Of a DNA stretch of 64,000 bases, positions 6,001-38,842 are shown piece after piece (within the stretch, counting starts at the first letter, position 1; the number at the start of each line of letters is the position of its first letter). Position numbers and translations under genes: made by a program. The notes beneath the pieces are model-generated. The model saw only the letters and a list, made by a program, of their open reading frames with translations, was not told where the DNA came from and did no database searches. The stretch covers positions 62,001 to 126,000 of the forward strand of contig ONKO01000002.1 of assembly GCA_900318445.1 (NCBI GenBank). The letters are read 5' to 3'. Source of the stretch: an uncultured Bacteroidales bacterium (GTDB lineage: Bacteria > Bacteroidota > Bacteroidia > Bacteroidales > UBA932).

Positions 6001-6008
6001 TACACGCA

Positions 6009-6041
6009 AAATCGGACATTTTTGGCTAAAATGTCCGATTT
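6009..6041. repeat. Palindrome, copy 1 of a tandem pair
   Basis: Perfect 14-bp arms AAATCGGACATTTT (6009-6022) and AAAATGTCCGATTT (6028-6041) around a 5-base loop, followed by AGGTAAG. It sits between convergent genes and could act as a bidirectional terminator, but the trailing T-run is weak. Confidence 0.8.
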
Positions 6042-6059
6042 CAGGTAAGCAGTTACGGG

Positions 6060-6092
6060 AAATCGGACAAAAAAGGCAAAAATGTCCGATTT
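6060..6092. repeat. Palindrome, copy 2 of a tandem pair
   Basis: AAATCGGACA (6060-6069) pairs with TGTCCGATTT (6083-6092). The right half and the trailing AGGTAAG are the same as in the copy 51 bases upstream, so this is a repeated unit, not a chance hairpin. Confidence 0.8.
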
Positions 6093-6138
6093 TAGGTAAG
6101 TCTGCGGAGCACCGTGACGGCGTGCCGTGACAAAACCG

Positions 6139-12322: not shown

Positions 12323-12351
12323 GGCACCCGTCTCCCACCGGCAACACCCTG

Positions 12352-12484
12352 GCCGCGTTGACAGGAAAATGCCATTCTGTGCGTTCTGCGTGTCGACGCG
12401 GCAAGCATTTTGGCGAAAACGGCGCAAAACCCGGCCGCGTTGACAGGAAAATGCCATTCTGTGCGTTCTGCGTGTCAACGCGGC
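12352..12484. repeat. 51-bp module, copies 1 and 2
   Basis: Copies at 12352-12402 and 12434-12484. Each begins with GCCGCGTTGACA and ends with TGTC(A/G)ACGCGGC, the reverse complement, around an inner stretch containing GAAAATGCCATTCTG. The 31-base spacer between the two is the same as that between copies 3 and 4. Confidence 0.9.
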
Positions 12485-12529
12485 AATCGCTCTCGTGGTC
12501 TCTAGTGTGATTTGTGTGCTGGCTTCAGC

Positions 12530-12749
12530 AGCGGTACTGCGGAGGAAGGAGACCCTCCCGGGGGACTCCGGTCGCATGGGAGGCCAGGTCGCTTCGCGCC
12601 CATCGCACCCATTGCTCCCTCCGGCCCCTCCCACCGTATCCGGCGTCCCTTGCTTCGCGCGGGACTTGTCTCCGGCGGGCCCCTCCCCCTCCCCCTAACG
12701 CGGGGGTGCGCAAGCCCCCGGGAGGGTCTCCCTCCTCCGCAGTACCGCT
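12530..12749. repeat. 35-bp inverted repeat enclosing 150 bp
   Basis: Left arm 12530-12564 and right arm 12715-12749 are reverse complements with one mismatch (AGCGGTACTGCGGAGGA...CCCGGGGG). The interior is C-rich and non-coding. The shape is that of a miniature inverted-repeat element, though no matching transposase is in the window. Confidence 0.85.
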
Positions 12750-12770
12750 GAAGCTGCCTTATTTTTGATT

Positions 12771-12829
12771 TCAGTGTGGCTATTCCCTATTTGCCGTTAC
12801 AGGTGGAAAGACGAAACGTAGCAGGTGGA
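12771..12829 (+). repeat. 59-bp direct repeat, copy 1
   Basis: Starts TCAGTGTGGCTATTCCCTAT and recurs at 13003-13061 with two mismatches. Confidence 0.9.
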
Positions 12830-12863
12830 GCAACGTTTTGTGCTTCCCACCGGCAACACCTTG

Positions 12864-12996
12864 GCCGCGTTGACAGGAAAATGCCATTCTGTGCATTCTA
12901 CGTGTCGACGCGGCAAGCATTTTGGCGAAAACGGCGCAAAACCCGGCCGCGTTGACAGGAAAATGCCATTCTGTGCGTTCTGCGTGTCAACGCGGC
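12864..12996. repeat. 51-bp module, copies 3 and 4
   Basis: Copies at 12864-12914 and 12946-12996, with the same 82-base period and the same spacer as copies 1 and 2, showing that the whole pair (about 133 bp plus upstream CCCACCGGCAACACC) was duplicated as a block. Confidence 0.9.
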
Positions 12997-13002
12997 AATG
13001 GC

Positions 13003-13061
13003 TCAGTGTGGCTATTCCCTATTTGCCGCTGCAGGTGGAAAGACGAAACGTAGCAGGTGGA
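13003..13061 (+). repeat. 59-bp direct repeat, copy 2
   Basis: Second copy of the 12771-12829 sequence; it begins seven bases after module copy 4. Confidence 0.9.
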
Positions 13062-13202
13062 AGCACAAACCTTATCACGGCGATTACATCTGTACCGGTG
13101 ACAGATTCTCAGTACCTCCCATTGAAAGTCTCCGCGAGCTGTGTGAGGCATGCCATCCATTGGCCTTCCAGTCCCCGTAATTCGGAAATAAATGATTATC
13201 AA

Positions 13203-13248
13203 TACATTACAAAAAATCTCCCCAGTCGAAACGCCGGGGAGAATTTTT
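13203..13248. terminator. Bidirectional terminator between fabZ-like gene and queF
   Basis: TCTCCCC (13217-13223) pairs with GGGGAGA (13236-13242). On the plus strand it is followed by ATTTTT; on the minus strand the stem is followed by six T (plus-strand AAAAAA 13211-13216). It can therefore stop transcripts from both sides. Bases 13203-13232 are the right copy of the 30-bp repeat. Confidence 0.75.
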
Positions 13249-13306
13249 GTTTCTTATTGTCTTTCAATTAGTTACACATCACGGAGAAATGTGACTAGAA
13301 AGCCGC

Positions 13307-17030: not shown

Positions 17031-18629
17031 CTATTTCACCAAATTCCCCAGAATACTCCGCGTAAGCTCTCGCGTGAGCGTAGTGGTAGCGCTCTTGGTA
17101 GCGCGTTTGACCATCTTCTCGCCCGTAGTGGTGCGGGAAGCGGTTTTCTTGCCGGTTATCTTGGAGGAAACGGCATCGGCGGCCGCTGCGGCGGCAACGC
17201 CTGTTACGGCAGTCAGCACGCTCCGGAGCACTTTGGAGGCGAGGCCTGGCTTCTTTTTAGCCTTGGCTGCCTCCTTCTGGGCCCGGGCCGCTTCCTTCTC
17301 CGCCTCAGCGGCAGCTTCCAGCTCGGCCTTCTGCCGTTCGGCCTCCTCGGTGGCCTTCGTTATGAGTTCGTAGGCACTCTCGCGGTCAATGGGATGGTCG
17401 TATCGGCCAAAAAGGCGGCTGCGGCGAATGATATCGGCCCGCTCCTCCGGGGTGATGGCCCCAATCTGCGACAGCGGGAACAGGATCTTGGCGCGTTCCA
17501 CCATGGCGGGCGTGCCTTTTTCGTCCAGGAAGGAGACCAGCGCCTCGCCGGTGCCCAGTTCCAGGAGCGTCTCGTACGTCTTGAAGGCGGGGTTGGGGCG
17601 GAAGGTATCGGCCGCCACCTTCACGGCCTTCTGGTCCTGCGGAGTATAGGCCCGGAGCGCATGCTGCACGCGGTTTCCCAGCTGGCCCAGGATGTTCACG
17701 GGGATATCGGCCGGGCTCTGGGTGATGAAGTAGATGCCCACACCCTTGGAACGGATGAGGCGGATCACCTGTTCTATCTTGTCGATAAGGGCCTTGGAGG
17801 TACCTTCAAACAGCATGTGGGCCTCGTCAAAGAAGAACACAAGCTTGGGAAGGTCCATCTCCCCCACCTCGGGCAGCGTCGCATAGAGCTCTGAGAGCAG
17901 CCACAGCAGGAAGGTGGAATAAAGTTTGGGCTGGAGCATAAGTTTATCGGCCGCCAGCACGTTCATGATGCCCTTTCCGGCCTCGCACTGGAGGAGGTCG
18001 TAGATGTCGAAGTCCGGTTCACCGAAGAATTTTTCGGCTCCCTGGCTCTCCAGGGCGAGGAGTGCCCGCTGGATGGCCCCGATGCTGGCCTGCGTTACGT
18101 TGCCGTACTGCGTGGTGTATTCCGCGGCGTTCTGCCCCACGAAGTTAAGCATCGCGCGAAGGTCCTTGAGGTCGATGAGGAGGAGGCCGTTGTCATCGGC
18201 AATCCTGAAAACGATGTTGAGAACGCCGGTCTGGGTCTCGTTGAGGTCCATGAGGCGGCCCAGCATCTCGGGACCCATGCGGGAGATGGTGCTGCGAAGA
18301 GGGTGCCCCTGCTCCCCGAAAACGTCGAAAAAGCGCACCGGGCAGCTCTGGAACTGCGGATTCTCTATACCGAACTCCGGCAGGCGCTTCTCGATGAACC
18401 CGGACAGCCGTCCCGCCTTGGAAATGCCGCTGAGGTCTCCCTTCATATCGGCCATAAAGCAGGGTACGCCGGCCTGGCAGAAGGTCTCGGCCAGCACCTG
18501 CAGCGTAACCGTTTTACCGGTACCGGTGGCGCCGGCGATAAGTCCGTGACGGCAGGCCATCCTGCCCGTGATGGAAATGGGGCCGCTGGGGCTATGGGCT
18601 ACGTACAGCCCTCTCTCTTTGTCTAACAT
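17031..18629 (-). CDS. HerA-like/DUF853 ATPase
   Basis: 532 residues, similar in layout to YjgR-type DUF853 proteins. Walker A GATGTGKT near residue 33, Walker B LVFFFDEAH, a sensor-like ITQSPADIP and a C-terminal arginine-rich finger region identify a RecA-fold ATPase of the HerA/FtsK branch. The last 110 residues are a highly charged Ala/Lys/Glu helix followed by an Ala-rich hydrophobic stretch (LTAVTGVAAAAAADAV) and a basic tail. Cellular role unknown; DNA pumping or a membrane-linked function is possible. Downstream it converges with mazG, seven bases away. Confidence 0.85.
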   Translation of the reverse strand: MLDKERGLYVAHSPSGPISITGRMACRHGLIAGATGTGKTVTLQVLAETFCQAGVPCFMADMKGDLSGISKAGRLSGFIEKRLPEFGIENPQFQSCPVRFFDVFGEQGHPLRSTISRMGPEMLGRLMDLNETQTGVLNIVFRIADDNGLLLIDLKDLRAMLNFVGQNAAEYTTQYGNVTQASIGAIQRALLALESQGAEKFFGEPDFDIYDLLQCEAGKGIMNVLAADKLMLQPKLYSTFLLWLLSELYATLPEVGEMDLPKLVFFFDEAHMLFEGTSKALIDKIEQVIRLIRSKGVGIYFITQSPADIPVNILGQLGNRVQHALRAYTPQDQKAVKVAADTFRPNPAFKTYETLLELGTGEALVSFLDEKGTPAMVERAKILFPLSQIGAITPEERADIIRRSRLFGRYDHPIDRESAYELITKATEEAERQKAELEAAAEAEKEAARAQKEAAKAKKKPGLASKVLRSVLTAVTGVAAAAAADAVSSKITGKKTASRTTTGEKMVKRATKSATTTLTRELTRSILGNLVK

Positions 18630-18667
18630 CGCTAGTGGTCTAATTAATTGGTTATCAATGTTATAAG

Positions 18668-18703
18668 TTTTTCTCTTTAGGCAGAGCAGCCTAAAGAGAA
18701 AAA
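18668..18703 (+). repeat. RAYT-associated palindrome, copy A
   Basis: Perfect 15-bp arms TTTTTCTCTTTAGGC / GCCTAAAGAGAAAAA around AGAGCA. Same core as the repeats that flank the RAYT gene at 36271-36300 and 37427-37458. It lies between the HerA-like gene and cstA, both on the minus strand, and may also serve as a cstA terminator. Confidence 0.9.
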
Positions 18704-18709
18704 GAAAAA

Positions 18710-20185
18710 CTACTCAGAATCAATGCGTTGCGAAGGAGCGACGCGGCGGCGCCAGAGCACGAACAGTGCGAGGGCGATGGCAAAGGTGGCAAGGCCGATC
18801 CAGGGAGCCCAGGTCTGGGGCAGCCGGAAGCCCGTCTTGTCAATGAGGATGAAGGTGACGCAGACGGACGTCATGAGGAGCGCAGGCAGGAGCGTCATGA
18901 GATAGTGGGCCGATGACCGCCGCCGGCACAGGTACACCGTTGCCGTCCAGAGCATGAAGGCTGCGAGGGTCTGGTTGCTCCAGCCGAAGTACCGCCAGAT
19001 GGTGTTGAAGCCGTTTGCATCGGCAATGTTGTACCACAGGAGGAGGGCCGATCCGGCAAAGAGCGGGATAGCCACCGCAAGACGCTTGCCGATGACCCGC
19101 TGCTCCAGGTGCAGGAAGTCGGCGATGATGAGGCGCGCACTGCGGAATGCCGTATCACCGGAAGTGATGGGAGCTGCCACCACGCCCAGGATGGCAAGGA
19201 TGCCGCCCAGAAGTCCCAGCCAGTTCTCGGAGACCTTGGTCACCACCGTGGGGGCCGCGGCCGAAAGGTCCGAGCCCACGGCAGCCGCGCCACCGTCGAA
19301 GAAGAACCAGGAGCTCACCGCCGCCCAGATAAGAGCCACCAGGCCCTCGGTGATCATGGAGCCGTAAAATACCGGACGCCCCATTTTCTCACTGCGGATG
19401 CACCGGGCCATGAGCGGGCTCTGCGTGGCGTGGAAGCCGGAAATGGCGCCGCACGCAATGGTAATGAAAAGGCACGGGAAGATGGGCTGTCCCTTGAGGC
19501 CGGCCTGCTCCGACCAGCCGCCCAGGCCGTCCCAGAGCTCCGGCAGCGAGGGCCACTTCACAAACAGGCACACCATGAGGGCGACCGCCATAAAGAGAAG
19601 GGCCACCGCGAAGAGCGGATACACCCGGCCGATGAGTTTGTCGATGGGCAGCAGTGTAGCCACCACATAATAGATAAAGATAATGCCCACCCACAGCATG
19701 ATGGAGCCGCGGGAGCCATCCCCCGCAATGTCTCCGAGGATGAGGGCCGGACTGTAGACGAACACCGTTCCCACCAGGAGCAGCAGGATGATACTGAACA
19801 CCAGCATCACCTTCTTCGTGCGCTGGCCCAGGTAATCACCCACCAGTTCCGGGAAGCCGGCGCCCCCGTGCCGGACAGAGAGCATGCCGCACATGTAGTC
19901 GTGCACGGCACCGGCAAAGATGCATCCGAGCACAATCCAGAGGTAGCTGGCCGGGCCGAACTTGGCACCCATGATGGCACCGAAGATAGGGCCCGTTCCC
20001 GCAATGTTGAGGAACTGGATCATGTACACCTTCCAGCTGGGAAGTGCAATGTAGTCCACGCCGTCGGCCTTGGAGATGGCCGGGGTGGGCCGATGGGGAT
20101 CGGGGCCGAAGACGCGGTCTACGAAGGCTCCGTAAACGAAATAGCCCAGGACAAGGGCCACGATGCTGATAAGAAACGAAAGCAT
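18710..20185 (-). CDS. cstA: Carbon starvation protein CstA family transporter
   Basis: 491 residues with about 13 membrane helices; the shorter CstA form common in Bacteroidota (E. coli CstA is about 700). Family blocks: FVYGAFVDRVFG, LPSWKVYMIQFLNIAGTGPI, FAGAVHDYMCG, SVRHGGAGFPELVG, and ISGFHATQSPLMARCI. CstA relatives import pyruvate or peptides under starvation. Its ATG overlaps the rsmD stop by one base, placing it last in a four-gene operon. Confidence 0.93.
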   Translation of the reverse strand: MLSFLISIVALVLGYFVYGAFVDRVFGPDPHRPTPAISKADGVDYIALPSWKVYMIQFLNIAGTGPIFGAIMGAKFGPASYLWIVLGCIFAGAVHDYMCGMLSVRHGGAGFPELVGDYLGQRTKKVMLVFSIILLLLVGTVFVYSPALILGDIAGDGSRGSIMLWVGIIFIYYVVATLLPIDKLIGRVYPLFAVALLFMAVALMVCLFVKWPSLPELWDGLGGWSEQAGLKGQPIFPCLFITIACGAISGFHATQSPLMARCIRSEKMGRPVFYGSMITEGLVALIWAAVSSWFFFDGGAAAVGSDLSAAAPTVVTKVSENWLGLLGGILAILGVVAAPITSGDTAFRSARLIIADFLHLEQRVIGKRLAVAIPLFAGSALLLWYNIADANGFNTIWRYFGWSNQTLAAFMLWTATVYLCRRRSSAHYLMTLLPALLMTSVCVTFILIDKTGFRLPQTWAPWIGLATFAIALALFVLWRRRVAPSQRIDSE

Positions 20186-22187: not shown

Positions 22188-23504
22188 ATGGATTTCATCC
22201 ATCAAGAAGATATCGTCACCCTGAAAAGGTGGCTGGCCAGCGCCAGCTATCCGATCATCGTGGCCCATACGCACCCGGACGGAGACGCCCTGGGCGCCGC
22301 TTCGGGCCTGGCACTGTACCTCCGCGGCATGGGGAAAGACGTCGCCGTCATCCTCCCCGACACCCCGCCGGACAACCTCCGCTTCATCCTTCCGAAAGGA
22401 ATCCCCTTCTTCTTCCACGACGAAGACCCCGCCGGGGCAGAGGCCCGCATCGCCAGGGCCGACCTCATCATCCTGGCCGATGCCAATGCCTTCACCCGCA
22501 CTAGCACGCTGGAGCCTTTCCTGAAAGCCTCCGCCGCCCGTAAAGTCCTCATGGACCACCACCTGAACCCCGACACCCAGAGCTTCGGCCTTGTCTTCTC
22601 CACCCCCGACATCTCCTCCGCCTCGGAGGTCGTCTACTGGCTCCTCAAAGCCCTGACAGAGAATGAGATTGAGATAGAGAAGGAGACAGAGAAGGAAACA
22701 GAGAAGGAAACAGAGAAGGAAACAGAGAAGGAAACAGAGAAGGAGACAGAGAAGGAAACAGAGAAGGAGACAGAGAAGGAGACAGAGGGAATGTGCGCCG
22801 GAGAGCCGAAGGCCCCTGTAACTCCGGGGGCATCGGCCTATTTTTTAGCCCCCGGAGTTACAGGGCCTTCGGCGATGCGCGAAGGACCTTTGGCAATGTG
22901 CAAAGGGTCTTCGGAGATGTGGGCAGGGCCTTCGGCAATGTGCAAAGGGTCTTCGGAGATGTGGGCAAAGGGTATCGGCGCAGCGCTGATGACCGGCATG
23001 ACCACGGATACCAACAACTTTGCGAATTCGGTGTTTCCGTCCACGTTCCAGATGGCGTCGGAGCTCATTGCGGCCGGGGTGGACCGGGATGCGCTCATCG
23101 GCAAGATTTATCAGAGCTACCGCGAGAACCGCGTGCGGCTCATGGGCTACATGCAGAGCGAGGAGCTTCACATTCTTGACAACGGCACAGCCTACATGGT
23201 CCTCACAAGGGACATCCAGGAGCGCTTTGACATGCGCGACGGAGAATCGGAAGGCCTTGTCAACGTGCCGCTCACCATTGAGAAAGTGCGCCTTAGCGTG
23301 CTCCTCAAGGAGGACGACGGCCACTTCCGCGTGAGCGTCCGTTCCAAGAAAGGCACCAGCGCGCAGCAGCTGGCGCAGCGCTTCTTCCACGGCGGCGGGC
23401 ACGAGAACGCGGCAGGCGGGAAGATGCTCATCGGCGAGGATATTCCATCGGCCGATGCGGCCCCTGCCTGCCTGGAACAAGTCCTTAAAGACTACCTGAA
23501 ATGA
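22188..23504 (+). CDS. DHH/DHHA1 phosphoesterase (NrnA-like) with repeat insert
   Basis: 438 residues. DHH motifs HTHPDGDALGA and DHHLNP in the N-terminal domain and GGGHENAAGG in the C-terminal DHHA1 domain identify a manganese-dependent phosphoesterase of the NrnA type, which degrades short oligoribonucleotides and/or pAp or cyclic dinucleotides. Between VYWLLKAL (residue about 160) and IGAALMTGMTTDT (about 265) lies an in-frame insert of about 100 residues that normal homologues should not need: ten or so E-T-E-K units, a palindromic segment, then two 14-residue tandem repeats (AMCKGSSEMWAGPS). All catalytic motifs remain. Followed by FKBP lipoprotein genes, with a 4-bp overlap. Confidence 0.88.
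   Translation: MDFIHQEDIVTLKRWLASASYPIIVAHTHPDGDALGAASGLALYLRGMGKDVAVILPDTPPDNLRFILPKGIPFFFHDEDPAGAEARIARADLIILADANAFTRTSTLEPFLKASAARKVLMDHHLNPDTQSFGLVFSTPDISSASEVVYWLLKALTENEIEIEKETEKETEKETEKETEKETEKETEKETEKETEKETEGMCAGEPKAPVTPGASAYFLAPGVTGPSAMREGPLAMCKGSSEMWAGPSAMCKGSSEMWAKGIGAALMTGMTTDTNNFANSVFPSTFQMASELIAAGVDRDALIGKIYQSYRENRVRLMGYMQSEELHILDNGTAYMVLTRDIQERFDMRDGESEGLVNVPLTIEKVRLSVLLKEDDGHFRVSVRSKKGTSAQQLAQRFFHGGGHENAAGGKMLIGEDIPSADAAPACLEQVLKDYLK
22674..22790 (+). repeat. 12-bp microsatellite inside the DHH gene
   Basis: About nine tandem units of GAGAAGGA(A/G)ACA encode Glu-Lys-Glu-Thr. Twelve is a multiple of three, so unit gain or loss keeps the reading frame. Variation between GAAACA and GAGACA units shows the array is not freshly expanded. 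Confidence 0.9.
22806..22872. repeat. Inverted repeat inside the DHH gene
   Basis: Arm 22806-22831 (CCGAAGGCCCCTGTAACTCC then GGGGGC) and arm 22848-22872 are reverse complements except for one extra C, with a loop containing six T. It has the form of a mobile palindrome that entered in frame. Confidence 0.85.
22886..22977 (+). repeat. 42-bp tandem duplication inside the DHH gene
   Basis: Two adjacent units of 42 bases (second starts 42 bases after the first at the shared CAATGTGCAAAGGGTCTTCG) encode the repeated 14-residue unit. Confidence 0.88.
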
Positions 23505-28360: not shown

Positions 28361-28369
28361 TGTTAAATT

Positions 28370-28547
28370 GCGCGTGGGCGTTGCGATGGCCGAAGGAATT
28401 TGGTTTTTCGCAAAGCCTTGCGAAAAATAAATTCCTTCGGCCGTTGGCCCATACGAACAAAAGCAGGATTCACGGCAAATCCTGCTTAAGATCGTCAGCA
28501 CTGACGAACAAAAGCGTAATTCGCCGCAAATCCTGCTTAAGATCGTC
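28370..28547 (+). repeat. 178-bp inverted repeat, left copy
   Basis: Reverse complement of 31257-31434 with only six differences by my alignment. It contains a nested hairpin (28390-28440: CCGAAGGAATTT...AAATTCCTTCGG with inner TTTTTCGCAA/TTGCGAAAAA) and AAGCAGGATT/AATCCTGCTT at 28461-28487. Its hairpins could terminate the serine hydrolase transcript. Confidence 0.93.
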
Positions 28548-31256: not shown

Positions 31257-31434
31257 GACGATCTAAAGCAGGATTTGCCGGGAATTACGCTTTTGTTCGT
31301 CAGTGGTGACGATCTTAAGCAGGATTTGCCGTGAATCCTGCTTTTGTTCGTAAGGGCCAACGGCCGAAGAAATTTATTTTTCGCAAGGCTTTGCGAAAAA
31401 CCAAATTCCTTCGGCCATCGCAACGCCCACGCGC
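31257..31434 (-). repeat. 178-bp inverted repeat, right copy
   Basis: Partner of 28370-28547 in opposite orientation, about 97% identical. Bases 31195-31539 as a whole hold the MsrA-fRMsr promoter, this repeat, the relic at 31440-31490 and the polA promoter; no further gene is seen. Confidence 0.93.
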
Positions 31435-31439
31435 AGTGA

Positions 31440-36219: not shown

Positions 36220-36234
36220 CCCCCCGCCGCGAAC

Positions 36235-36341
36235 CCGCGCTAAACTGCTGATTATCTGCGCTTTATCCTTTTCTCTTTAGGCTGCTCTGCCTAAAGAGAA
36301 TTTGCTATATACTTCATAGTCAAAGAGTTAAGTCGAGTGCG
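36235..36341 (-). repeat. RAYT-flanking repeat, copy B
   Basis: About 107 bases homologous, in inverted orientation, to copy C at 37387-37499. Core: 12-bp arms TTCTCTTTAGGC / GCCTAAAGAGAA (36271-36300). Outer parts share CGCACTCGAC, TAAGTATATA and TCAGCA blocks with copy C. The RAYT stop codon and last codons (ALDLTL) lie in its outer arm. Confidence 0.88.
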
Positions 36342-37249
36342 ATATGGAGGTACTTTTTCACTTGGACAGGGCGGGCCGATGTCCGGCTCAGCAGATAGTA
36401 GTACAGCTGCTGCTTTTGCTCCAGGGGGAGGGAGGGGATGGCCGATAGCTGCCGCGCCGAGAGGCCTTTGGCCTGGAGAACGTGGGTGCAGTCGGCATAG
36501 ACGGTGTCTGTGTAATTGTCGTGGTCTTCCCGGATTTCGTACTCGCTGCCGGTGTTGTCGTGGAAGGCGCGCAGCATGGTGTCGTAACTGCCATAGTAGC
36601 TGATGGCCTGCTCATAGTCGATGACGTTCCACAGGCCGATGATGTAGTCGGCAAGCTGCTGCCACTCTGTCGCCGATAAATGGCTTTCCCAGCGTTCCAG
36701 CATGGAATAGGTGATGTACTGCCCGTCATCGTGGCACTGCTTTATCTCTTTTAAGGCCATTCTCATATAGGATTTCGCATGCGACTCGTTGAGGGGAAGA
36801 GAGAAGGGATTCCTGTTATTATAGTAAGCGAGGAAGGTCCACCGATAATCTTCGGCACGTTCAACCAGTTTCCGCTCCACCGGGTTGTTGTTGCTGTAGG
36901 CCAGGACGGTCCTAACTTGTTTGTTACCCAGCTTGGCTGCACTTCCGAAGGGATGGCTGAACAAAAACCCTTTCTTCTTCCGCTTTTTGTTCCATTCATA
37001 GGCAAACAGGTGGGAGTAGGTTTGGACAAAGGTTGCCATCTGATTTTTGCTCGCCGCCACAATGACCTGGTGCGTATGATCCGGCATAGGGCACAGGGAC
37101 AGGACGCTCACGCCCCTTTGCCGGGCCTGGCTGCAGTAGATGGTGAAATAGACCAGGTAATCGTGAATGGAATAGAAGATAACACCTTTGTTACGGGTTC
37201 TCTGGAACACATGATGCGCTTCCCCGGAGTACACTTTTCTTTTTTTCAT
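36320..37249 (-). CDS. REP-associated tyrosine transposase (RAYT)
   Basis: 309 residues from ATG 37249; an upstream TTG would add six residues. HUH/Y1 transposase of the IS200-like superfamily: metal-binding His58-x-His60 in CPMPDHTHQVIV, then a helix FVQTYSHLFAYEWN whose Tyr78 is the probable DNA-attacking residue, LAYSNNNPVE and AEDYRWTFLAYY as in RAYT proteins. RAYTs nick hairpin repeats (REP) and are thought to spread them; they do not move as IS elements. Inverted palindromic repeats flank the gene on both sides and another copy lies at 18668-18703, the textbook RAYT arrangement. The 130 C-terminal residues are longer than in many RAYTs. Confidence 0.88.
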   Translation of the reverse strand: MKKRKVYSGEAHHVFQRTRNKGVIFYSIHDYLVYFTIYCSQARQRGVSVLSLCPMPDHTHQVIVAASKNQMATFVQTYSHLFAYEWNKKRKKKGFLFSHPFGSAAKLGNKQVRTVLAYSNNNPVERKLVERAEDYRWTFLAYYNNRNPFSLPLNESHAKSYMRMALKEIKQCHDDGQYITYSMLERWESHLSATEWQQLADYIIGLWNVIDYEQAISYYGSYDTMLRAFHDNTGSEYEIREDHDNYTDTVYADCTHVLQAKGLSARQLSAIPSLPLEQKQQLYYYLLSRTSARPVQVKKYLHIALDLTL

Positions 37250-37386
37250 GCCTTTTTTGTTTGGCAAGATAAAAGATAAACTCTACAAAAAAGAAATTTT
37301 TGTATCGAAAGTGTGGTTTTAGCCACTTTTATGTGCTGTTTTAGCCGATTTTATCATTTTTTGACCGAATTCCACCCTCCCCACCC

Positions 37387-37499
37387 CGCACTCGACCTAA
37401 GCTGCTGATTACTAAGTATATAAAAATTTCTCTTTAGGCAGAGCAGCCTAAAGAGAAAAACGTAGAACGCTGATAGTCAGCAACTTAACGCACTTGCGC
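37387..37499 (+). repeat. RAYT-flanking repeat, copy C
   Basis: Core arms TTTCTCTTTAGGC (37427-37439) and GCCTAAAGAGAAA (37446-37458) around AGAGCA. The wider unit forms an imperfect long hairpin, with CTAAGCTGCTGATTA on one side and TAGTCAGCAACTTAA on the other. On the minus strand the core stem is followed by ATTTTTA, so it may also terminate the long hemicellulose operon, whose last gene ends at 37499. Confidence 0.88.
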
Positions 37500-38842
37500 T
37501 ACTTCTTAATAGGATAGAGGCGAAGCAGCAGCAGGATGAGGAGCGCGATGGCGGCCGGGAAGAGCGAGAACAGGGCCCAGATCATGGTCTGGACCGAGGA
37601 CTCGTTGGTGATGGTGATGACGGTCTCCTGCGTGACAGGGTCTGTGTTGGAAATGAAGCCCGCAAGGCCGAGGAGCGTTGCCACCAAGGCGCCGGAGATG
37701 GCCGATCCGAACTTCTGGGCCATGGTGCCGGAAGAGAAGATGAGGCCGGTGGAGGAAGTACCGTTTTTCTCGGTGGCGTAGTCTGCCACGTCGGCATACA
37801 TGGACCAGATGAGCGGAGAATAAAAGCCGATGCCGATGGACGTGACAATCACATTGAGAATCATGACCCACATCCAGGCGGGATCCATGGGGATGAAGAA
37901 GAACAGGATGGAGGAAACGGCGCAGATGATGGCCGACCAGGCAAACGCCTTGTTCTTGGAGCCCACCTTCTTGGTGAACCAGGGGCACAGGCCGCCGAAA
38001 ATCATGCACACCGCCTCTCCGAACATCATGAACACCGTATAGTTGATGACAAGGCCATAGACGGTGACATCCCCGTGCAGGCAGTATTCCATGAGGTATG
38101 CGGCCACGGCATAACGGAACCCGTTGAAGAAGTTGGTGCAGATGCCGATGAGCGTAAGGTAAATCCAGGGCTTGTTGCGGAAAAGGTCGGCAAAGGGCTT
38201 GAGGGAGAATTTCTCGGCCCGCACCGGCTTCAGGCGCTCCTTGGTGAGGAGGCCGCAGGCCAGCGTACCCAGAGCCGCCACACCGCCCAGCACGGCACCC
38301 AGCACTGCATACTGGTGCTGCGGAGTGCCGCCCACCATCTTCTGCAGATACGGGAACGTGAACAGGGTCACAAAGCCCATGGCGTAGGCCCCCACCATGC
38401 GGTAGGAGGAGAACTGGTTCTTCTCGTTGTCATCCTCGGTCATTACACCAAGAAGCGATCCGTACGGCACATTCACGGCCGTATAGACCACCATCATAAG
38501 AAGGTACAGTGCATACGCATAGATGCGCTTGCCGGCAGGGCCCAGGTCGGGCGTATACAGCAGCAGTGCGAAAACCAGCCCCAGCGGAATGGCGCCGAAG
38601 ATGAGCCAGGGCCTATATGTGCCCCAGCGGGACTGCGTACGGTCTGCGATGGCACCCATGAGCGGGTCTGTCACCACGTCGAACAGGCGCGCCACCAGCA
38701 TGAGAGCAGCGGCATCGGCCACGGTAAGGCCAAAGACATTGGTAAAGAAGAAGGGAAAAGCGATAGACATGACCTTCCAGGTAATACCGCCTGCAGCGGC
38801 GTCCCCGAGGCCATAACCTATTTTCTCGGAAAGTTTAGCCAT
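37499..38842 (-). CDS. GPH-family sugar:cation symporter
   Basis: 447 residues with twelve membrane helices. MelB/GPH-type N terminus (KIGYGLGDAAAGGITWKVM), the loop DPLMGAIADRTQSRWGTYRPW between helices 2 and 3, and VPYGSLLGVM identify the glycoside-pentoside-hexuronide family. As last gene of the mannan operon it most likely brings mannobiose or similar disaccharides from periplasm to cytoplasm for the epimerase and GH130 enzyme. 30 bases behind the epimerase gene. Confidence 0.9.
   Translation of the reverse strand: MAKLSEKIGYGLGDAAAGGITWKVMSIAFPFFFTNVFGLTVADAAALMLVARLFDVVTDPLMGAIADRTQSRWGTYRPWLIFGAIPLGLVFALLLYTPDLGPAGKRIYAYALYLLMMVVYTAVNVPYGSLLGVMTEDDNEKNQFSSYRMVGAYAMGFVTLFTFPYLQKMVGGTPQHQYAVLGAVLGGVAALGTLACGLLTKERLKPVRAEKFSLKPFADLFRNKPWIYLTLIGICTNFFNGFRYAVAAYLMEYCLHGDVTVYGLVINYTVFMMFGEAVCMIFGGLCPWFTKKVGSKNKAFAWSAIICAVSSILFFFIPMDPAWMWVMILNVIVTSIGIGFYSPLIWSMYADVADYATEKNGTSSTGLIFSSGTMAQKFGSAISGALVATLLGLAGFISNTDPVTQETVITITNESSVQTMIWALFSLFPAAIALLILLLLRLYPIKK

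Follow-up and report, generated by a model that had tools for sequence, protein, structure and literature searches.

The transposase gene at 36320–37249 (minus strand) of the window, the whole 64,000-nucleotide stretch of Bacteroidales DNA analysed here, and a family of palindromic elements lying between the genes of the same genome quite probably form a REP/RAYT-type pair of a Bacteroidales lineage, in which the transposase would act on its own intergenic palindromic family and the elements would follow the drift of its recognition in place. This reading is built on the architecture of the element, its genome-wide copies, the cognate pairing of transposases and cores, the way residues 71–100 of the protein vary together with the core, and elements that have kept their orthologous sites despite the change of one base pair in the core.

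Transposase gene and flanking elements

From its ATG start, the minus-strand open-reading frame (36320–37249) encodes 309 amino acids; from the alternative TTG start at 37267 it covers 36320–37267 and encodes 315. The product matches Pfam Y1_Tnp (E-value = 4.4e-7) and carries the HUH motif as His58-Thr-His60 (37070–37078, minus strand; numbering from the ATG). It also matches NCBIfam REP_Tyr_transpos with an E-value of 2.6e-10, but its 40.4 bits lie below the cut-off of 80, so the curated model is not passed. In an alignment of 78 sequences (the window protein and 77 of 80 related loci; L269 was excluded because of a stop codon, and L225 and L247 were left out), His58, His60, Tyr118, Asn121 and Asn122 are invariant. 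On account of its YSNNNP motif and its invariance in the 78 sequences, Tyr118 (36896–36898, minus strand) is the probable catalytic residue. A sequence-only reading of the window had named Tyr78 instead, and had to be corrected: in this alignment, position 78 is listed neither among the invariant positions nor among the nearly invariant ones.

In the structure model of the protein (mean pLDDT 92.7), residues 68–89 form a helix, and the best structural match is 4er8, the E. coli RAYT with its REP hairpin (E-value = 1.1e-4); the IS200/IS605 transposases IS608 and ISDra2 appear at rank 2 and below. A phmmer search against the PDB sequences gave no match at an E-value of 0.01, and a profile search against them gave ISDra2 at 0.0089 and 4er8 only at 0.41. 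Pfam, the invariant residues and the match to 4er8 together indicate an HUH motif and a putative catalytic tyrosine in a Y1 fold, as in RAYTs, and agree with the sequence-only reading in its naming of an HUH/Y1 transposase of RAYT type. The nearest other transposase copies in the same genome are two full-length relatives of only 42% and 38% identity; several near-identical copies, as expected of an IS200/IS605 gene that is mobile as a unit, are absent.

The gene is framed by two inverted copies of the element. Copy B (36227–36343, minus strand), recognized from the sequence and a skeleton scan, overlaps the 3' end of the gene, whose TGA stop codon (36320–36322, minus strand) lies inside it; copy C (37384–37500, plus strand), recognized by inverted-repeat comparison and the skeleton scan, lies upstream of the gene. 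The core hairpin TTCTCTTTAGGC-N6-GCCTAAAGAGAA is exact in B (36271–36300) and C (37428–37457), and also in copy A (18627–18743, plus strand; core at 18671–18700), a third copy that is situated at 18.6 kb between two other genes, apart from the transposase gene, and was found by its exact core and the skeleton scan. In 100 shuffles of the window the core did not occur. The inverted arms at 36237–36341 and 37387–37491 are 79% complementary over 105 nt. The perfect core in B and C, the homology of the flanks and the position of the stop codon in copy B had all been seen correctly beforehand; the elements, at about 36227–36343 and 37384–37500, reach slightly beyond the span then given, 36235–37499. 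An Rfam search of the window yielded no match.

A fourth element of the same skeleton lies at 13173–13286 and has another, imperfect core, AAAATCTCCCC...GGGGAGAATTTTT, different from all three cores that go with the transposases identified in this genome; it may be a relic of a former specificity.

Design and genome-wide copies of the element

A count over the whole genome, proposed by the sequence-only reading as its check, located 36 occurrences of the core with up to three mismatches in the assembly, which is 2,308,810 bases long and 88% complete, so that the core is not confined to the neighborhood of the gene. The reversed core pattern has no match there. Of these cores, 14 have no mismatch, 12 have one, 10 have two and 0 have three. 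Because three mismatches were allowed, this distribution rules out that the near-identity of the 36 cores is a by-product of the search pattern.

All 36 copies share one design in an ungapped alignment. The element, about 115–117 bp long, consists of a family-specific tag, an arm with shared key positions, a family-specific core palindrome, a second arm and the inverted tag. The consensus of this family begins with a weak tag near TTCGCGAA and continues through TAA-N4-YT-N7-AR-N4-TTA, a T- or A-rich step and a 12-bp stem to a six-base loop, followed by the mirror image. Mean pairwise identity among the copies is 0.94 in the stem, 0.55 in the arms, 0.39 in the tags and 0.29 in the flanks. Compensating changes keep the outermost stem pair paired in 31 of 36 copies (permutation p = 2e-4), and the first loop pair forms in only four, against about 13 expected (p = 4.5e-4). 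The element is symmetrical as a whole, and its predicted folds could be those of a REPIN, an inverted REP doublet forming one long hairpin, but covariation of pairing within an arm is absent among the 36 copies. The arms were rejected as separate hairpins on this ground. The 36-copy consensus of this family has no GT[AG]G column, and thus no GT[AG]G foot; several related families do have a GTGG, which lies in their outer tag, well away from the stem of the core.

With ORFs called mechanically, 33 of the 36 copies lie between two ORFs, 16 of them convergent, 13 tandem and four divergent; two more are at an edge and one is inside an ORF. The median distance from the centre of the element to the ORF is 55–56 bp, so that the element nearly fills the intergenic gap.

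One transposase, one core

Each of the two paralogues in the genome of the window (G000) is flanked by copies of another core within the same element frame, and these cores have 25 and six copies in the genome. The core of the first is absent from all 100 congeners; that of the second was found among the 100 only in G028, which has five copies and a transposase relative beside one of them. Among the 100 congeners, the window core with up to two mismatches occurs only in G037 and G038, in a single copy per genome, and hence is not equally common in other genomes; equal occurrence there would have weighed against the sequence-only reading. Both copies are situated on 2.1 kb that are 97% identical in G000, G037 and G038, whereas the neighborhood of the transposase is 75–86% identical between genomes; from this difference, the copy in G037 and G038 was probably carried there by transfer. 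The shared segment of at least 2.1 kb (L026, L066 and L067 in the three genomes), which carries one element, is probably a recently shared mobile segment.

A syntenic transposase has homologous neighbors on both sides in G037, G019 and G005 and on at least one side in G038, and the G000 protein shares only 50–55% identity with these four counterparts. The cores at the syntenic genes are TTCTCTTTAGGC in G000, TCCTCGTTC in G037 and G038, TTCTCGTTC in G019 and AATCCTCGGC in G005. The TCCTCGTTC pattern with up to two mismatches has 51, 58 and 41 copies in G037, G038 and G019, in all three of which cores of this type flank the syntenic transposase. In the other 98 genomes it has no copy (78 genomes), one copy (19, among them an exact match in G005) or two copies (one genome), and the reversed pattern gave one match in each of four genomes. 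Flanking inverted palindromic repeats with many intergenic copies, and a repeat class of its own for each transposase (three cores for three relatives in the genome of the window, and different cores across species), are both features of RAYTs.

Occurrence in the genus and beyond

A relative of the transposase at E-value ≤ 1e-20 is encoded in 58 of 101 genomes of the genus, that of the window included. At least two matches to a core-free skeleton pattern were found in 37 of these 58 genomes, against three of the 43 without a relative; the reversed skeleton gave eight matches in all across the 101 genomes. One of the three exceptions, G030, has 44 skeleton matches, with one core, peculiar to this genome, among the matches listed, and no transposase relative even by profile at E-value ≤ 1. 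Its assembly is 97% complete, and its elements include L275–L280. Six full G030 elements resemble one another more in the arms (0.64, against 0.44 in the genome of the window) and less in the cores (0.86, against 0.94). The gene may have been lost or left unassembled in G030, or the genome is a counter-example to the pairing.

A scan of named genomes yielded 301 relatives, the best 80 of which come from records titled Bacteroidales or Bacteroidia, many of them ruminant. Skeleton elements flank 39 of these 80 loci on both sides, 27 on one side and 14 on neither, so that 66 of 80 have an element nearby, against two of 80 in the reversed control (none on both sides, two on one, 78 without); the thresholds of this survey were set after the loci of a first sample had been seen. 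In that first sample, eight of 35 loci had no element, three of them being distant Y1 proteins or fragments. Two loci of the genome of the window, L034 and L035, encode distant Y1 proteins and have no skeleton but other palindromes close by, including several GGACCTGGTCC-like repeats near L035. Eight transposase relatives occur in the single genome G044 (L048 and L184–L190). Head-to-tail arrays with a period of about 130–135 bp are present in G038, five elements at L178 (C12:34207–34765) and three at L123 (C1:34321–34605).

Core switching at shared sites

The transposase of G101 (the genome of L217) is 85% identical to that of G019. G101 has 43 copies of the element, 42 of the TCCTCGTTC type and one with TTCTCGTTC; G019 has 41, of which 37 are exact TTCTCGTTC, two are exact TCCTCGTTC and two have mismatches. 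Thus 39 of the 41 G019 cores are exact, although two mismatches were allowed (the pattern leaves the switched pair free), and here, too, the search pattern does not account for the conservation of the core. The comparison of sites used 36 elements of G019 and 43 of G101, a genome that was fetched in part. At 13 sites the DNA is homologous on both sides (flanks 69–97% identical), and at 12 of these the core has switched on both sides of the stem; the remaining site has TTCTCGTTC in both species, with the right arm lost from the G101 copy. The 17 one-sided pairings were reduced manually to 11, all of them switched; those removed involved a second partner for one element, a degenerate copy or the vicinity of a contig end. 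In total, 23 of the 24 shared sites examined are switched, the change being one base pair of the core.

Identity between the elements at two-sided and one-sided sites is 0.67 and 0.67 in the arms, against 0.55 for random pairs (0 of 2000 random sets reached either value), and 0.73 (p = 0.001) and 0.69 (p = 0.02) in the stem flanks, against 0.61. The corresponding values are 0.69 (p = 0.10) and 0.79 (p = 0.005) against 0.59–0.60 for the loops, and 0.50 (p = 0.07) and 0.47 (p = 0.30) against 0.46 for the tags. Because arms and stem flanks are alike beyond random pairs, the elements at these shared sites are in the main the same elements, with the core changed in place. About one of 84 copies in the two genomes looks half-switched. 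That both sides of the stem change together favors a templated process, and that loops are partly kept favors point changes. Replacement of the whole hairpin is not favored, since loops are identical at eight of the 24 sites (one of them unswitched). An escape of truncated elements from the switch was suggested by L317, which has no right arm and is unswitched, but L303 has lost its right arm and yet switched.

At wider distances, unrelated cores occupy shared sites, for example at two neighboring sites in L024/L168 and in L030/L137/L179. Between G000 and G019, G037 or G038, however, the arms exceed background in only one of 13 pairings tested (p = 0.004; 41 elements of G000 with duplicates included, 40 of G019, 35 of G038 and 19 of G037, with G037 and G038 fetched in part).

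Protein residues that follow the core

Of the 78 alignment rows, 67 had a core and entered the comparison of cores with proteins. Core similarity is 0.97 at protein identities of at least 90% (9 pairs), about 0.6 at 60–90% (121 pairs) and 0.31–0.32 below 60% (2081 pairs), and some pairs at 82–88% identity have unrelated cores. Among 129 pairs of 60–96% identity, core similarity correlates with identity over residues 71–100 (36950–37039, minus strand; most of helix 68–89 and the loop behind it) at rho = 0.63, against 0.30 for the whole protein, and none of 3000 random 30-column sets equalled this value; the pairs are non-independent, and 71–100 is the best of many windows of residues. Tag similarity, by contrast, has a rho of −0.02 with residues 71–100, 0.68 with 141–180 and 0.60 with the whole protein. 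Residues 71–100 thus covary with the core, and tag similarity tracks other parts of the protein.

In five switch pairs and ten same-core pairs, all picked by hand, residues 71–100 hold 0.06–0.26 and 0.02–0.14 of the differences, respectively; the ranges overlap, and the one-sided p of 0.0099 is uncorrected for the choice of residue range. Only three of the 50 differences in the switch pair L202/L210 fall in residues 71–100. In L257/L261, from neighboring species, 26 of 36 differences fall in residues 31–90, and the proteins are otherwise nearly identical, with unrelated cores; nucleotide identity is 0.38–0.73 over locus residues 16–75 and at least 0.91 in the other blocks. By their sequences, these two genes look like a natural mosaic, or domain swap. 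Helix alpha3 of the E. coli RAYT binds DNA, and one of its residues touches the stem of the REP (PMC8266576); we infer that helix 68–89 corresponds to alpha3.

Mechanism and alternative explanations

Under the preferred REP/RAYT-type reading, each core would have one transposase gene, kept in its place in related species and acting on its own element family. A dimer of the transposase would bind the core as a single-stranded hairpin, helix 68–89 and the loop to about residue 100 reading the core stem and other parts of the protein choosing the outer tag. Tyr118 would cut near the tag, and the unit of about 115 bp would occasionally be copied into gaps between genes. As recognition drifts, the resident cores would follow in place, presumably through selection of matching cores or through conversion of short tracts, and the rest of the element would drift, apart from a few fixed positions in the arms. 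Against this reading we count the 44 elements of G030 without a detectable transposase, the loci without an element (14 of 80 and 8 of 35), the NCBIfam score below cut-off, the missing GT[AG]G foot and the partly kept loops at switched sites, which speak against wholesale replacement.

The elements might instead be selected binding sites for a cellular task, such as chromosome organization or the control of gene ends, bound by a domesticated transposase whose mobility is rare or over. This is possible but would be somewhat surprising. It fits the persistence of elements at orthologous sites, a core far better conserved than arms and tags, the 33 of 36 copies between two ORFs, and the description of RAYTs as single-copy, vertically inherited, domesticated transposases (PMC8049555). 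A fixed cellular signal, however, would hardly have cores that differ wholly between related species within a retained frame; different cores moreover coexist within one genome, and the close tandem arrays in G038 suggest continuing multiplication.

Slightly less probable, and in our view unlikely, is that the transposase itself rewrites resident elements in place, nicking or copying only the core, so that a change in residues 71–100 would lead to the conversion of dozens of sites, with the arms as fixed docking frames.

It is quite improbable that the pairing of core and transposase reflects recent common descent only and that the switch at shared sites is independent re-insertion at favored places. 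For the shared sites of G000, re-insertion may still apply, because 12 of the 13 pairings with G019, G037 and G038 are at background in the arms; for the close pair G019/G101 it is disfavored, as the arms (0.67 against 0.55) lie beyond all 2000 random sets and the sequences beside the stem resemble each other as well.

If the hairpins were ordinary terminators of the intrinsic kind between converging genes, with the transposase there by chance, this would account for the 16 of 36 copies between convergent ORFs and the strong hairpins in all four strands folded. The explanation is rejected as scarcely credible: A-runs outnumber T-runs behind the stem (at +15.5 to +17.5, A in 19–21 and T in 13–16 of 36 copies), and a common sequence that is specific to the genome and tracks the transposase would not be expected of terminators.

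Comparison with known systems

The REP/RAYT arrangement recognized by the sequence-only reading is supported by the fold match to 4er8 and by the finding that transposases and cores go together in paralogues and in different species; what departs from it is the three-part unit of about 115 bp and the absence of a GT[AG]G foot. As in the gammaproteobacterial systems (REPs, BIMEs and REPINs), a Y1/HUH transposase, with 4er8 as best structure, has inverted flanking copies, many intergenic copies and a repeat class of its own, and syntenic transposases have different repeats, which PMC3686654 describes for RAYTs, together with their co-evolution with their own REPs, under the name orthoswitches. 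The gammaproteobacterial REPs are, however, 20–50 nt long, whereas the unit here has a 24-base core between two 25-bp arms with shared key positions, and the 309-residue protein has a second domain. In the orthoswitch model of PMC3686654, new variants spread and old copies remain and decay; this does not fit G019 and G101, where 23 of the 24 examined sites switched in place. The stem mismatch required in E. coli REPs (PMC8266576) resembles the unpaired first loop pair of the window family.

A 2018 paper already described RAYTs of Bacteroidetes whose genes are bordered by 'atypical secondary structures' that recur elsewhere in the genome (PMC6006769). TnpA-Y1 subclass 2.6 of that paper shares these features with the window system and has other published motifs and another length: its median length is 179 residues with NH[LIV]H and YIH[QN]NP, against 309 residues with DHTH and YSNNNP. 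The terminal-inverted-repeat-associated Y1 transposases (TIRYTs) of the same paper have terminal inverted repeats at the ends of the element, as here, but each repeat here is a complete palindromic element with many genomic copies. With IS200/IS605 (IS608, ISDra2), the window system has the catalytic fold and, putatively, hairpin substrates in common; unlike them, it gives no sign of the gene moving as a unit, as each core has one gene in the genome of the window and the gene keeps its place in related species. In the openly accessible literature, we found no description of the three-part frame, the division between core and tag in the protein or in-place switching.

Other repeats in the window

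Inverted repeats of 179 nt, 97% complementary and 2.7 kb apart, are located at 28369–28547 and 31257–31435, and enclose genes that, as named from their translations, probably encode an ABC-type ATPase and a peptide methionine sulfoxide reductase-like protein. Inside them, palindromes spaced 51 bp with TGACGA/TCGTCA ends recall CGTC-tagged repeats; palindromes with this tag are described in Bacteroidetes (PMC3733652). Two tandem palindromic repeats, also spaced 51 bp (AAATCGGACA...TGTCCGATTT), are intergenic at 6004–6100. The window further contains tandem repeats of 12 and 21 bases at 22641–22966, and direct repeats of 160 nt (98%) and 59 nt (97%) at 12333–13061.

Biological meaning

On the mechanism by which RAYTs and their repeats come to change partners, the authors of the term orthoswitch say that they can only speculate (PMC3686654). 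Dozens of transposases that use one frame with different cores bear on this question, as do two close species with a switch at nearly all of the examined shared sites, and the close pairs and the mosaic L257/L261 narrow the change of specificity to part of one domain. The shared arms provide a core-independent means of finding such repeats in Bacteroidales, and specificity, homogenization and spread are directly testable in one system. If the transposase did rewrite its elements in place, the genome would contain a self-updating set of repeats whose target code can be swapped via one protein helix. Related species have the same device with different hairpins, which makes it possible to observe a DNA-recognition code while it changes.
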